Source of the DNA: an uncultured Ruminococcus sp.
Lineage (GTDB): Bacteria; Bacillota_A; Clostridia; Oscillospirales; Ruminococcaceae
Assembly (NCBI GenBank): GCA_947303535.1
Contig: CAMYYQ010000130.1
Span: 1 to 5,121 of the forward strand
Reading direction: 5' to 3'
Length of the DNA: 5,121 nt
Under the pieces are notes generated by a model. The model was given only the letters and a program-made list of their open reading frames with translations, was not told the DNA's origin and did not search any database. This document shows positions 293 through 4,615 of this stretch, in pieces. Position numbers and translations under genes: made by a program. The first letter of the stretch is position 1. The number at the start of each line of letters is the position of its first letter.

Positions 293-943
293 TTACTTTT
301 TAAAGAAAGCTCCACTGCCTGCGTTATCGACATCGTCTACCCAGCTCATGCCTGTATCGTCTGCTCCTCTTTCGGAAACAGTGATATAGCCTGATCCGTT
401 GGTATAAACTGTCTCGGTCGAAACAGAGCCGTCATCACTTGTCTTCATTATGCTCTTTGAGCAGTTTTCATAGTGCAGTACAGCTCTGCCGTCGAACATA
501 CCGGTGAGATACCACTGAGTTGTTTCGCCGGGCGATGTCTTATGTGAAATAGTGACTTTGTATTCACTGTCACCGAGATTGTCTATTGACATATAGAAGC
601 TGCCGTCATTTTCATCACCGTACAGACCTGCAAACGGGTCTGAGGCCGATAAGGAAGAATGAGAACCTGCGGCATTTGCTTCGGAAGCCGCTTCAGCTGC
701 TGAGGTATCGCCTGATACTGCATCAGCGGCAGTAGTTGTGGTCTCAGCGGCTGTATCAGCAGCAGTTGAAGTTGTTGCAGCTTCAGCTGCTCCTTCCTGT
801 GAAGCGGCTGTAGTTACCTCATCGGAAGCTGCGGCAGTAGTTGCAGCTGTGGAAGAATGTTTCTGCTTCTGATGAGTTTCTTCCTGACCGCAGCCGCAAA
901 GCAGCATTGTCATTATAAGTACACAAAATAATCTTTTTTTCAT
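293..943 (-). CDS. Lipoprotein with Ala/Thr-rich tether and C-terminal beta-rich domain
   Basis: This is a 216-residue secreted lipoprotein of unknown function. The start at 943 is chosen because AGGAGAG (950-956) lies just upstream and because it gives a standard signal peptide: a MKKR n-region, a hydrophobic stretch at 5-16, and the lipobox LCGC with the lipidated Cys at 18. A longer in-frame start at 1045 would bury the signal peptide and run through the predicted promoter. Residues about 29-100 are a low-complexity linker rich in Ala, Thr, Ser and Glu, probably a spacer holding the rest away from the membrane. Residues about 102-216 look like a small beta-rich domain (SFYMSIDNLGDSEYKVTISH, then QWYLTGMFDGRAVLHYENC, ending SWVDDVDNAGSGAFFKK). 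From memory, similar tails occur in other Clostridia lipoproteins, but I cannot name the family. The gene is transcribed away from the xylanase gene. Its upstream region carries the same promoter-like element as the ECF sigma operon, which suggests it belongs to that regulon. Confidence 0.9.
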   Translation of the reverse strand: MKKRLFCVLIMTMLLCGCGQEETHQKQKHSSTAATTAAASDEVTTAASQEGAAEAATTSTAADTAAETTTTAADAVSGDTSAAEAASEANAAGSHSSLSASDPFAGLYGDENDGSFYMSIDNLGDSEYKVTISHKTSPGETTQWYLTGMFDGRAVLHYENCSKSIMKTSDDGSVSTETVYTNGSGYITVSERGADDTGMSWVDDVDNAGSGAFFKK

Positions 944-978: not shown

Positions 979-996
979 TGCGAAATACTTTTCGCA
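979..996 (-). other. Small hairpin in the leader of the lipoprotein mRNA
   Basis: TGCGAAA (979-985) and TTTCGCA (990-996) form a perfect 7-bp inverted repeat around a 4-base loop. It lies downstream of the predicted transcription start and about 35 bases before the start codon. No T run follows, so it is not a terminator. It could stabilise the 5' end, affect translation, or be an operator. The role is unknown. Confidence 0.5.
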
Positions 997-1000
997 TAAG

Positions 1001-1044
1001 AGCTTTCACATCATACAAACGACGTGAAAAAGAAAAATGTGTCA
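1001..1044 (-). promoter_or_regulatory. Predicted ECF-type promoter of the lipoprotein gene
   Basis: Read on the - strand: TGACAC (1044-1039), a 17-bp spacer, CGTTTGTAT (1021-1013), three bases, then GTGAAAGCT (1009-1001). TGACAC differs at one position from TGAAAC, a common ECF -35, and CGT is a typical start of an ECF -10. Transcription would begin near 1009, giving a leader of about 65 bases. The same arrangement, with an identical spacer length and 18 of 21 identical bases from CGTTTG onward, lies before the ECF sigma gene at 2658-2701. A sigma-A reading (TATGAT as -10) is possible, but no -35 fits at 16-18 bp. Confidence 0.65.
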
Positions 1045-1307: not shown

Positions 1308-2576
1308 ATGATCAGAAATGTTCTGAAAAAGATATCTGTGATCGCAGCTTTTGCCTGTATCATGGGTACATTCACAGGCTGCAGCCAGAATAATAAGGAA
1401 AACAGCGGAAAAACTCAGGTATTCCATGAGAATACTACGGGTACTGCTGACGGATATGATTACGAATTATGGAAGGACGAAGGAGATACCACCTTCAATG
1501 TAGAGCCCGGCGGCGGTAATTTCTCATGCGAATGGGAGAATATTAACAACGCTCTTTTCCGCCGCGGTAAAAAGTATGACTGCACAAAGACCTATCAGGA
1601 GCTTGGAAATATGTCCATTGACTACGGTGTTGACTATCAGCCTGTAGGCAATTCGTATATGTGCGTATACGGCTGGACAAGAGAGCCACTTGTAGAGTAT
1701 TACATAGTAGAATCATGGGGAAGCTGGAGACCGCCCGGAGCTCCTGCTGCACTGGGTACGGTCACAGTTGACGGCGGTACTTATGATATATATAAGACCA
1801 CAAGATATGAACAGCCTTCTATCGACGGAACTCAGACCTTTGACCAGTACTGGAGCGTAAGACGTAAAAAGCCTGACAGCAGCGGAAATAAAATAGAAGG
1901 TAAGATCTCTATCTCAAAGCATTTTGATGCATGGAAAAAGTGCGGACTTGAGCTTGGAAAAATGTATGAGGTAGCACTTACCATAGAGGGCTATCAGTCA
2001 CAGGGAAAGGCTACTATATATAAGAATGACCTGAAAGTCGGCGGAACATATTCCGAGGCAGATGATATAGATGTCACAGTGGACTATGATGCTATCGCAA
2101 AGCTTGAAAGCTCAGTCTCAGAGGGTGATCCTACGGAAGCAGGCTTTTTCGATATCAGCTTTGAAAAGGGTGCTGAGGGCTGGATACCTCGCGGCGGCTC
2201 GCTTGTGACTGTAGACAAGGAAAATGCATCTGACGGAAAACAGTCACTGTTTGTAAGCGGCAGAACGGATAACTGGAACGGTGCAGCCATAATGCTGAGC
2301 AGCGATACCTACAAGCCGGGCAAGGCATATAAATTCTCGGCAAAGGCAATGCAGAAAAGCGGCGAAGATGTAACAATGAAGCTTACCATGCAGTACAACG
2401 ACGGTACAGAAAAGTACGATGAGGTGGCATTGGTAACAGCCAAGAGCGGAGAATGGGTTACACTTTCCAATGATGCATATGTTATCCCCGAGGGAGCAGA
2501 GATGCTTCAGCTTTATGTAGAGTCTCCCGACAGTCTTACTGATTTTTATGTTGACGAGGTATCAGGAGCAGAATAA
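1308..2576 (+). CDS. Lipid-anchored GH11 endo-1,4-beta-xylanase with CBM22-like module
   Basis: This 422-residue enzyme is predicted to cut internal beta-1,4 links of xylan by the retaining GH11 mechanism. Signal peptide 1-24 ends in the lipobox FTGC (Cys25), so the enzyme should be tethered to the outer face of the membrane. The GH11 domain is about 48-247. It shows [27 protein letters not shown], the nucleophile motif [13 protein letters not shown] (Glu130), the thumb PSIDGTQTF (170-178), and the acid/base motif [11 protein letters not shown] (Glu227). Gln232 stands where the signature usually has Ser, Thr, Ala or Asn. An acidic linker (248-277) leads to a CBM22/CBM4_9-like domain (279-420; [37 protein letters not shown]). 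There is no dockerin or sorting motif. The catalytic residues are intact, so it should be active. It is monocistronic, with its own promoter and terminator. GH11 assignment is very sure, CBM22 fairly sure, and lipid anchoring likely although Phe at lipobox -3 is less common. Confidence 0.96.
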
Positions 2577-2606: not shown

Positions 2607-2637
2607 GAGCTGATCCCAGTGGTCGGCTCTTTCTTTT
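2607..2637 (+). terminator. Intrinsic terminator of the xylanase gene
   Basis: A 9-bp stem (2607-2615 with 2621-2629, two G-U pairs) around the loop CCAGT is followed by TTTCTTTT. It lies 31 bp after the xylanase stop and separates that gene from the sigma operon. Confidence 0.85.
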
Positions 2638-2644
2638 ATTAGAT

Positions 2645-2660
2645 ACAAAAAATTTTTTGT
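2645..2660. repeat. A6T6 palindrome upstream of the sigma operon
   Basis: ACAAAAAATTTTTTGT is a perfect 16-bp palindrome overlapping the -35 of the predicted ECF promoter. Runs of this kind bend DNA and can act as UP elements for RNA polymerase. It may also simply be AT-rich sequence following the terminator. Confidence 0.5.
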
Positions 2661-2701
2661 GACGAAATGCTGCAACTTGACGTTTGTATAGAGTGAAAGC
2701 T
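2658..2701 (+). promoter_or_regulatory. Predicted autoregulated ECF-type promoter of the sigma operon
   Basis: TGTGAC (2658-2663), a 17-bp spacer, CGTTTGTAT (2681-2689), three bases, and GTGAAAGCT (2693-2701) match the element before the lipoprotein gene at 1044-1001. Transcription would begin near 2693, giving a leader of about 82 bases. ECF factors commonly activate their own operon, which fits. An overlapping sigma-A promoter is also possible: TTGACG (2677-2682), 18 bp, TACCAT (2701-2706). It could supply basal expression. Confidence 0.65.
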
Positions 2702-2715
2702 ACCATGGAAGCTTT
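2696..2715. repeat. 20-bp near-perfect palindrome at the start of the sigma operon transcript
   Basis: AAAGCT-A-CCATGG-A-AGCTTT is symmetrical except for one A:A pair. It starts just after the predicted transcription start and covers the -10 of the alternative sigma-A promoter, so it could be an operator or a 5' hairpin in the mRNA. The lipoprotein leader also has AAAGCT at the same place followed by a hairpin, although a different one. Confidence 0.45.
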
Positions 2716-2774: not shown

Positions 2775-3347
2775 ATGACAGGCGGCGAATATATTGATCT
2801 TCTGGAAAAGTCTCAGAAGAAAGCGCATGAGAAACTGTTTGAGGAATATTACAGCTATGTCCGTGCAATAGCATATAACAGGCTCAGGAGCGTTGGTACG
2901 AATGAGGATGTGGAGGAGTGTATCAGTGATATATTTGCACGTATATTCTTTACATTCGGCGAAAAGTATAACAACGGCGATATGAAGCCATTTATAGGAG
3001 TAGTGGCTAAGCGGATCAGCATTGACCATTACAGGAGCCTTATGCGCCATACTGATAAAACATTTTCTATAGACGAAGATACGAGCCGTGAACTGAGTTC
3101 GGACGAAGATCTTGTAAGCGAAAGCGAAAAGACGGAACTCAGGCGTATACTGCTGGATAGTATCAATTCGTTGGGAGAACCCGATTCTACCATAATAATA
3201 CAAAAGTACTATTATGCAAAACGGTCACAGCAGATCGGGGAATTACTTTCAATGAAACCGTCAACCGTGCGAATGAGATGCAAAAGAGCAGTTGAAAAAC
3301 TTCGCAGTATACTTGTTAAGAGAGGTATAAAGGAGGAAATGATATGA
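2775..3347 (+). CDS. ECF-type RNA polymerase sigma factor (sigma-70 family)
   Basis: This 190-residue protein has the size and layout of an extracytoplasmic-function sigma factor, which directs RNA polymerase to a small set of promoters. Region 2 spans about 18-92: EKLFEEYYSYVRAIAYNRL, then DVEECISDIFARIF in the core-binding part, and FIGVVAKRISIDHYRS in the -10-recognising part. An acidic linker (about 97-118, rich in Glu, Asp and Ser) replaces region 3. Region 4 spans about 119-182, with the helix-turn-helix SQQIGELLSMKPSTVRMRCK contacting the -35. There is no region 1.1 and no C-terminal extension. The start at 2775 is set by AAGGAGG seven bases upstream. The stop overlaps the next gene's start by ATGA, so the two are translationally coupled, typical of a sigma factor and its anti-sigma factor. 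The upstream region carries the element shared with the lipoprotein gene, which I take as its own target promoter. Exact ECF group not determined. Confidence 0.93.
   Translation: MTGGEYIDLLEKSQKKAHEKLFEEYYSYVRAIAYNRLRSVGTNEDVEECISDIFARIFFTFGEKYNNGDMKPFIGVVAKRISIDHYRSLMRHTDKTFSIDEDTSRELSSDEDLVSESEKTELRRILLDSINSLGEPDSTIIIQKYYYAKRSQQIGELLSMKPSTVRMRCKRAVEKLRSILVKRGIKEEMI
3331..3336 (+). promoter_or_regulatory. Ribosome binding site of the anti-sigma gene, inside the sigma gene
   Basis: AGGAGG sits seven bases before ATG at 3344, within the last codons of the sigma gene, whose TGA (3345-3347) overlaps that ATG. Coupling of this kind helps keep the two proteins in balance. Confidence 0.9.
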
Positions 3348-4615
3348 GAGATCTAAAGCTTGACATACTTGACAGAGCCGATGATGACATCATTGATAGA
3401 CTTGTTCCTTTTTCGTCAGATGACAAAAAGACTAAAAAGCGAATACTTGCAATGAGCGAGAAAAAATTAGCAGAATTACAGAGAGGTTCAGAAACAGCAG
3501 CAAACGAAATAAGCGTTCGCGGTGTTGAACAGTACCGCAGACCAATGTGGTATAAACCGTTAAGCATCGCAGCAGCTCTTGTATTTATGGCCGGCGGAAT
3601 CGGTATGTTCGCATTGCTGAACAGAACAAAGGTAAATCAGTTCAATGATCCTGACCAAAACAACGTTGCAGCTACAACAGAAGCAGTTACAACCGAAGTC
3701 CAGACCACAGAAGCACCGACAGAACCGGATACTCTTCTTAGTGAAGAAGAAATGAAGGCGACATTTGACAGGCTTCTTCCTGTACTTTATGAATCTGAGT
3801 CGTATAATTTCCTTTCTATGGATCGTACAGATCTTAGCGGAGAGACAGTGACACTTCATTCAACACACTTTAATGAAGACATTCTTTATGAGAAGCTCGG
3901 CGATGATCGCTTCACCTCATACAATGACCTGATAGAGTACTACAAACCGTATTTCACTGACCCGACAAGATATTTCTACTGCTATATAGTAGACGGCGAT
4001 GATATTTCAGTACTGGCAAATGATGAAAACATACATGATGTCATTGAACTGGGCGGTGAATTATACATTCACAAAAATGCAAAATCATTGAGATCAGATC
4101 ATTCGGACATAGAGCCTGTATCTGAACAAGCATATTACGTAAGCTCAGACTCATTCCAGTGGGAGAGAGTTATCCCCGCACAGGAGGACGATGCTTATGG
4201 TATTGGCGAAAACAATTTCACTGTTCTTGATGTAGTATTCCAGAAGGACGATGACGGAGTATGGAAAATAGTATCATCTCTTGAGTCTACGAGTCAATAT
4301 TCAGATGATGAGCTGAATTCAGGCTTACCTTTAACAGAATCTTTGATTCGTCCATCTGAAATGAATGGCATAGACACTGAGACTGCATATGAAAATGCAA
4401 AGGAATACGCAAAGAGCAATTATGATTATACAGGCAAGTTCACATGGAATAACATAGACGAGCTTTACGAGGATACAGAGATCATAACAAATGACTATGT
4501 AAACAACAATAACTGGATGACCTGTACTTGCAGTGATCTTCTCCATGACGGAGGCTGTCTGATACTTTTCCTTGATGAAAACGGAACAGTTTTCGCACAA
4601 AAAATAACACATTAA
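3344..4615 (+). CDS. Putative membrane-spanning anti-sigma factor with large extracytoplasmic domain
   Basis: A 423-residue single-pass membrane protein, proposed to hold the upstream ECF sigma factor inactive until an outside signal arrives. Residues 1-70 are cytoplasmic and charged (RADDDIIDRLVPFSSDDKKTKKRILAMSEK is the core, rich in Asp and Lys). One hydrophobic segment spans about 71-92 (PLSIAAALVFMAGGIGMFALL), preceded by RRPMWYK, so the N-terminus should be inside. A Thr/Glu-rich linker (109-128) leads to a large outside part (about 132-423) in which FTSYNDLIEYYKPYFTD and LGGELYIHKNAKS recall NTF2-like or IseA-like folds, though I cannot confirm this. Cysteines lie at 213, 394, 396 and 405 outside the membrane, and CTC at 394-396 could form a disulfide or bind metal. 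There is no HxxxCxxC zinc motif of classical ZAS anti-sigma factors. The role rests mainly on gene order, ATGA overlap and topology. Confidence 0.85.
   Translation: MRDLKLDILDRADDDIIDRLVPFSSDDKKTKKRILAMSEKKLAELQRGSETAANEISVRGVEQYRRPMWYKPLSIAAALVFMAGGIGMFALLNRTKVNQFNDPDQNNVAATTEAVTTEVQTTEAPTEPDTLLSEEEMKATFDRLLPVLYESESYNFLSMDRTDLSGETVTLHSTHFNEDILYEKLGDDRFTSYNDLIEYYKPYFTDPTRYFYCYIVDGDDISVLANDENIHDVIELGGELYIHKNAKSLRSDHSDIEPVSEQAYYVSSDSFQWERVIPAQEDDAYGIGENNFTVLDVVFQKDDDGVWKIVSSLESTSQYSDDELNSGLPLTESLIRPSEMNGIDTETAYENAKEYAKSNYDYTGKFTWNNIDELYEDTEIITNDYVNNNNWMTCTCSDLLHDGGCLILFLDENGTVFAQKITH

Follow-up and report, generated by a model that had tools for sequence, protein, structure and literature searches.

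A promoter-like element common to a lipoprotein gene and an ECF sigma factor operon of Ruminococcus, with a conserved sequence at the predicted transcript start

Why should a gene for a lipoprotein and an operon for a sigma factor, lying on opposite strands, be preceded by the same promoter-like element? The question is raised by the stretch of 5,121 nucleotides analysed here, hereafter the window, in which the lipoprotein gene (943-293, minus strand) is followed by a gene for a GH11 xylanase, an ECF sigma factor gene and an overlapping gene for a protein with a single transmembrane segment (TM):

293-943, minus strand: gene of an Ala/Thr-rich lipoprotein of 216 aa, lipobox LLCGC (judged by eye)
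1308-2576: GH11 xylanase with a CBM_4_9 domain, between the two promoters
2607-2629, plus strand: intrinsic terminator-like hairpin 3' of the xylanase gene (terminator scan)
2775-3347, plus strand: ECF-type sigma factor gene, 190 aa (TIGR02937)
3344-4615, plus strand: gene of a single-TM protein, candidate anti-sigma factor, with a 4 bp overlap with the sigma gene

The lipoprotein has no Pfam match. The terminator-like hairpin is weak by itself, because shuffled sequences average 1.4 such hairpins and the scanned region holds 2. The window has no near match among plasmids, and a viral origin was rejected, since no relative is encoded at any of the 10 pattern matches in viral contigs.

The element consists of the following parts, which are compared below with Ruminococcus flavefaciens strains YAD2003, Y1 and ATCC 19208 (G001, G002 and G003, respectively) and with a Ruminococcus MAG (G006):

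1039-1044, minus strand: -35 element TGACAC of the lipoprotein promoter (TGACAC also in the three strains, TGAAAC in G006)
1013-1021, minus strand: -10 element CGTTTGTAT of the lipoprotein promoter (also in G001 and G003; CGTTTGTTT in G002, CGATAGTAA in G006)
1001-1009, minus strand: GTGAAAGCT, predicted transcript start (inferred +1 near 1009) and conserved initial transcribed sequence
2658-2663, plus strand: -35 element TGTGAC of the sigma operon promoter (alignment of 62 sigma promoters)
2681-2689, plus strand: -10 element CGTTTGTAT of the sigma operon promoter (exact match; same alignment)
2693-2701, plus strand: GTGAAAGCT, predicted transcript start (inferred +1 near 2693) and 5' arm of a terminal hairpin

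The block CGTTTGTAT-N3-GTGAAAGCT is found at 1021-1001 (minus strand) and at 2681-2701 (plus strand) with 0 mismatches each. No third site is present in the window with up to 3 mismatches allowed, and 200 dinucleotide-preserving shuffles of the window gave a mean of 0 and a maximum of 0. TGACAC (1044-1039, minus strand) and TGTGAC (2658-2663, plus strand) each stand 17 bp from CGTTTGTAT. The repeat on both strands that the initial annotation had described is thus borne out. The TGNNAC that it proposed as the common -35 stands as TG..AC with a 17 bp spacer and fails as a full description, the sigma-type -35 being TGTGACAC or a variant and that of the lipoprotein gene TGACAC. The two sites also take the top two places in the window (18.5 and 13.8 bits, vs 4.8 for the runner-up) under R1, a model of sequence alone that was made from 62 sigma promoters and trained without lipoproteins. 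Its training set includes the window's sigma site and leaves out its lipoprotein site. The same scan gave no strong site 5' of the GH11 xylanase gene.

In our opinion, the ECF sigma factor encoded at 2775-3347 quite probably recognises both sites as promoters, with GTGAAAGCT as the 5' end of the mRNA, a view that is built on sequence, spacing, conservation and gene neighbourhood. The sigma operon, encoding the sigma factor together with a membrane-bound candidate anti-sigma factor, would then activate itself, and the lipoprotein gene would be a second target. The sigma factor would contact the -35 (TG..AC) and the -10 (CGTTTGT), and transcription would start at the G of GTGAAAGCT, which would represent a conserved initial transcribed sequence of the Ruminococcus sigma family and of a number of its likely targets.

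The sigma factor scores 76.7 bits against the ECF model TIGR02937 (cut-off 42.9), the best above-cut-off NCBIfam model for this protein among the best 25 of 47 models; in Pfam, region 4 is above the cut-off and region 2 just below it (23.7 vs 24). The protein has sigma regions 2 and 4 only at a length of about 190 aa, as an ECF factor should. Its closest counterparts are those of R. flavefaciens YAD2003 (98%), ATCC 19208 (96%) and Y1 (94%). A scan of species genomes yielded 429 stretches encoding sigma relatives, the best 80 of which were analysed. A closely spaced gene lies 3' of the sigma gene in 79 of the 80, and 76 of these 79 products have one hydrophobic segment around residues 65-111, with an ectodomain whose length varies. 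Because the sigma genes of relatives are so closely followed by one-segment partner genes, the 3344-4615 product is a candidate anti-sigma factor. It matches no Pfam family at E 0.001, its ectodomain has no CBM or similar match, and the fold search gave no Foldseek match at E 0.001. The ectodomain model (residues 131-314) is nearest to the IseA and NTF2-like folds, a likeness too weak for assigning function, and confidence is low over most of the N-terminal 130 residues. IseA is an inhibitor of cell-wall DL-endopeptidases; the modelled likeness may hint at envelope sensing.

The layout TG..AC–N17–CG…–N6–TGAAAG is present 5' of most genes examined in a large family of ECF sigma factors from R. 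flavefaciens relatives. Of the 80 sigma loci, 73 were scanned for arms (L022, L029, L040, L044, L046, L057 and L063 were left out); no arm was found by the script in L015, L064, L067 and L069, the first of which has the element by eye, and the alignment on TGAAAG or its variant took in 70 leaders, that of the window and those of 69 loci. The best TGTGACAC match lies at an identical distance in 63 of the 70. All of these except L028 make up the gapless alignment A2 of 62 sigma promoters, which reads TGTGACAC-N15-CGAATGT-N6-TGAAAGC and follows the pattern nTTnTGTGACACTTT...CGAATGTTnTTTATGAAAGC with T5, G6, C10, G29, G42 and A44 invariant. The distance from the -10 to GTGAAAGCT at the lipoprotein site of the window is the same as in these 62 promoters. 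The -10 varies within the family (CGAATGT, CGTTTGT, TGAATGT, CGATAGT), CGATAGT being confined to 3 of the 70 sigma promoters. The agreement of the window with the AAC-type -35 and CGT-type -10 expected of ECF promoters is loose, with AC rather than AAC and a spacing of 17. The element is kept 5' of orthologous sigma operons and also of paralogous ones. In four sigma paralogues (L040, L044, L046, L063), the conserved upstream region is another one, CGAGTATATTTGCAGAGCG..., and TGAAAG is absent.

The lipoprotein promoter can be followed into relatives as well. Its spacing is identical in the window and in G001, G002 and G003, in which it reads TGACAC-N17-CGTTTGTAT or CGTTTGTTT, then TGAAAGC or TGAAAAG, and the -10 CGTTTGT is common to the lipoprotein and sigma genes in the window and in these three close strains. 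In G006, the lipoprotein homologue (34% identity) is encoded on contig C3 and the sigma gene on C2. The two promoters read TGAAAC-N17-CGATAGT-N6-TGAAGG (lipoprotein) and TGTGAC-N17-CGATAGT-N6-TGAAAG (sigma), so that the -10 of the lipoprotein gene in this fourth genome matches the changed -10 of its sigma gene. No other single item of sequence evidence for one regulon is as strong as this common change to CGATAGT at two unlinked places. G006 has three TGNNAC-N17-CGATAGTA sites, and TGAAAG or TGAAGG follows the lipoprotein and sigma sites only. It should be noted that over three genomes the 8 real TGNNAC-N17-CGATAGTA sites barely exceed the 6 reversed controls; therefore, the weight lies in where the sites are located and in what follows them. 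Similarly, with TGNNAC-N17-CGTTTGTNT at no more than 1 mismatch, the reversed pattern turns up roughly as often as the real one (72 vs 78), and for this reason a -35 and -10 alone are weak evidence at a single place.

More distant homologues bring in the question of whether the lipoprotein gene is instead read by a paralogous or a housekeeping sigma factor, the likeness of the two sites being a general likeness of ECF promoters in the genus. The genomes do hold several paralogous sigma factors with similar promoters. Lipoprotein homologues of 41-42% identity in G004, G014 and G007 have a similar promoter layout, G004 and G014 having CGAAAAT and AGAAAC and G007 having TGTACC, CGTTTAT and TGAAGG; the sigma -10 in G004, G014 and G007 (CGATTGT, CGATTGT and CGAATGT) differs in each case from the lipoprotein -10 of the same genome. 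These lipoproteins and their nearest sigma factors may not be the true pair. Against such a separate reader stand the CGTTTGT that both genes have in the window and in the three close strains, the CGATAGT common to both in G006, and the outcome of a consensus scan of the lipoprotein strand between the divergent genes, in which the only sigma-70-type site sits within the leader (976-947). We consider a different sigma factor distinctly unlikely. In 13 further relatives, the lipoprotein homologue is absent in 9 (E 1e-8), partial in 3 and full-length in 1.

Genome-wide searches point in the same direction as the conservation of the two promoters. Run over 12 genomes, R1 recovered the lipoprotein promoters of G006 (E 7e-4), G001 (0.03) and G003 (0.26); that of G002 is absent among the R1 matches listed. 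Of 90 R1 matches examined, which form part of the table, 47 lie 5' of sigma paralogues and 28 are 5' of genes for lipoproteins or secreted-type proteins, signal peptides and lipoboxes having been judged by eye. One set of 30 comprises 19 sigma paralogues, 9 secreted or lipoprotein-like products (L220 among them) and 2 without assignment, and another set of 60 comprises 28 sigma paralogues, 19 secreted or lipoprotein-like products, 3 other reading frames and 10 without assignment. The proposal of the initial annotation that this is the target promoter of the sigma factor, with the lipoprotein in its regulon, is supported at the level of sequence by the retention of the element in relatives and by these downstream genes.

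Because R1 itself includes TGAAAG, the search was repeated with the -35 and -10 only as bait, which gave 43 sites in 25 genomes vs 4 for the reversed pattern, the bait having been chosen with the sigma promoters already known. Half of the 42 distinct sites (21) are at sigma genes, and 20 of those have an exact TGAAAG, while in L321 it is shifted by one; these sigma rows overlap the R1 training set. At the other 21 sites, none of them matched to a sigma gene in this search, TGAAAG is exact in 7, matched at 5/6 in 4, at 4/6 in 2 and at 3 or fewer positions in 8. Six of the 7 exact sites are at secreted-protein genes, and the products at 5 of these 6 look by eye like one secreted family, so these five are not independent. 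The seventh (L216) is at an interrupted sigma-like frame.

Several observations from these searches deserve mention in their own right. In several genomes, one sigma subfamily and a group of secreted proteins that look like one family (L301, L298, L313, L314, L320 and L244) have the leader TGAAAGGTCGAYC or TGAAAGATCGATC in common. The sigma-like frame of L216 is preceded by a complete promoter and leader of the sigma type (1501-1650, reverse strand); since the frame is interrupted, it is possibly a decayed sigma gene or an assembly error. Finally, TGTCAC-N17-CGTTTGTAT is present without TGAAAG in G001, G002 and G003, 5' of a gene (read in L146) that we take from its sequence to be GtrA-like, the sites in these three R. 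flavefaciens genomes being L138 1501-1532, L146 1501-1532 and L151 1501-1532 (opposite strand). Judged by its promoter, this gene is a possible third target of the same sigma factor.

What, then, is the sequence downstream of the -10? The usual distance from an ECF -10 to the transcript start puts the start at the A or G before TGAAAG, which is accordingly the predicted and likely start. The initial annotation had left a choice between an initial transcribed sequence and a site for a second protein, and the former fits best. The motif most likely serves initiation or promoter escape by the form of RNA polymerase that carries this sigma factor. In many sigma leaders, the first nucleotides would moreover pair with a downstream segment to give a small 5'-terminal stem-loop, and the lipoprotein leaders examined would form stem-loops of unrelated sequence just after the motif. 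The folds predicted in the window are:

2696-2715, plus strand: sigma-leader hairpin AAAGCT-ACCATGGA-AGCTTT, with the core CCATGG at 2703-2708 (fold)
979-996, minus strand: lipoprotein-leader hairpin TGCGAAA-AGTA-TTTCGCA (fold)

The first 40 nt of the window's sigma leader fold at -7.6 kcal/mol with the AAAGCT/AGCTTT stem, and the first 44 nt of its lipoprotein leader at -9.8 kcal/mol (z -1.94 vs mononucleotide shuffles). Six lipoprotein leaders, that of the window and 5 others, were folded over their first 44 nt; each is predicted to form a stem-loop of its own (z -1.9 to -3.5, mononucleotide shuffles), and none of the six has the CCATGG hairpin. The TGAAAG of sigma leaders is able to pair with CTTTC-type segments further along the leader, the best helix scoring 5.1 on average vs 3.5 in shuffles, and arm pairing exceeds that of shuffles at 0.05 in only 37 of 70. 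Among the 26 leaders that depart from TGAAAG, some of which are probably not promoters, pairing with the leader's own arm is better than with the consensus arm in 13 and no better in 13, kinship among rows inflating the count. Clear cases of compensation are L004 (9 pairs), L261 and L263 (GAAGA with TCTTC), and L042 and L075 (AAGA with TCTT). Compensatory changes in the hairpin arms thus exist in the sequences and are not general. The hairpin alignment, A3, holds 48 hairpins, and their right arms were misaligned by MAFFT.

Perfect palindromes of at least 8 bp directly 3' of TGAAAG are over-represented, being present in 22 of 45 leader clusters vs 3.6 expected (shuffle maximum 9; the count is inflated by kinship among rows), and the palindrome differs by sigma subfamily (CCATGG, GGTCGACC, GCAGATCTGC, CGTATACG). 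Both features, together with arm compensation in no more than half of the 26 departing leaders, would suit a DNA operator composed of GTGAAAGCT and the palindrome that follows, at which a dimeric regulator represses or co-activates, the RNA hairpin being a by-product. Several observations speak against such an operator: the distance between arm and palindrome varies, L005 and L006 keep the arms with the palindrome lost, and the lipoprotein site of the window is without such a palindrome. Moreover, single imperfect pairs in near-palindromes are more often G-U (22) than A-C (6), with 13 other, as would fit RNA on the transcribed strand; kinship inflates these counts too, and 4 of the 6 A-C rows form one related group in which the mismatch would fall in the four-base loop. 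The excess of G-U over A-C favours selection on the RNA, many of the rows being related, and an operator is in our view rather unlikely. Highly improbable is a further reading, in which the apical palindrome pairs two transcripts in a loop-loop dimer as a dosage signal at the RNA level: self-complementary cores do recur in sigma subfamilies of unrelated sequence, but they are lost in L005, L006 and several targets, and the computed stems are weak in many leaders.

Returning to a sigma-dependent promoter with a conserved transcript start, the stem-loop most likely protects the 5' end or tunes the translation of short leaders. A more far-reaching version of this reading, offered tentatively and in our estimate doubtful, is an ECF promoter of three parts: besides the -35 and the -10 there would be a fixed motif at +1, (A/G)TGAAAG, after which comes a self-complementary box specific to the subfamily. 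The transcripts of one regulon would then carry the same 5' hairpin tag, to be read by the polymerase, by a ribonuclease or by a dedicated protein that binds RNA or DNA, and the box would follow the type of sigma factor in sigma genes and unlinked targets alike (e.g., GGTCGAYC).

A search for the CCATGG hairpin showed it to be rare, with 29 matches spread over 19 places in 12 genomes vs 3 for the reversed control; 13 of the 19 are known sigma leaders. The other six were rejected as targets; they have no such promoter 5' and look like chance or other hairpins. With Rfam at E up to 1, the 4 matches in the window all lie outside 1001-1044 and 2658-2720 and fall short of the gathering score, and in seven relatives no family lies over the leader at the gathering score. 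A leader peptide translated from (A/G)TG AAA GC as a leaderless open reading frame was also rejected: relative to the sigma start, the motif is distributed over all three frames (28, 23 and 17 of 68), and many candidate frames stop or run on. The leader of L012, upstream of 6001, has an extra hairpin-like insert between its TGAAAGG arm and the CCATGG box.

Autoregulated ECF operons are already a known kind. Stabilising stem-loops at the 5' end of a transcript are likewise familiar, for example, from the ompA leader. According to the excerpted text of PMC8103513, autoregulated ECF systems have an AAC-type -35 and a CGT-type -10, and the locus resembles the sigma/anti-sigma operons described there in its two-domain sigma factor, single-TM partner, AC-type -35 and CG-type -10. 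Unlike general ECF operons, it has TGTGACAC or a variant rather than plain AAC as the -35, a -10 that varies, a conserved TGAAAG at predicted +2, often a 5' hairpin, and a candidate anti-sigma factor outside Pfam families at E 0.001. The SigI/RsgI systems of cellulosome-forming clostridia, as portrayed in part of PMC12484212, share with it a fibre-degrading Firmicute host, paralogous pairs of sigma factor and membrane protein, and varied ectodomains; here, in contrast, the best sigma family is ECF, and the ectodomain is without a Pfam match such as CBM. The predicted stem-loops resemble those of papA and aprE, on which PMC3997798 cites earlier work, in being short, at or next to the 5' end and before the ribosome binding site. 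Unlike those of ompA, papA and aprE, they are tied to one sigma family and some likely targets, and have a fixed starting sequence. A review, in its excerpted text, records ECF262 from Ruminococcus albus (PMC8999054). Among the matches listed in the literature searched, mostly without subscription papers, there was no description of the promoter signature and leader and no study of this sigma family of rumen fibre degraders.

The comparison provides a regulon that can be tested in a sigma family of major degraders of rumen fibre. It turns an odd repeat into a predictive signature, with which genes for lipoproteins and secreted proteins may be placed in sigma systems by their sequence. Should initiation or the fate of the RNA depend on the +1 motif, ECF promoters would gain a third element, one that is transcribed.
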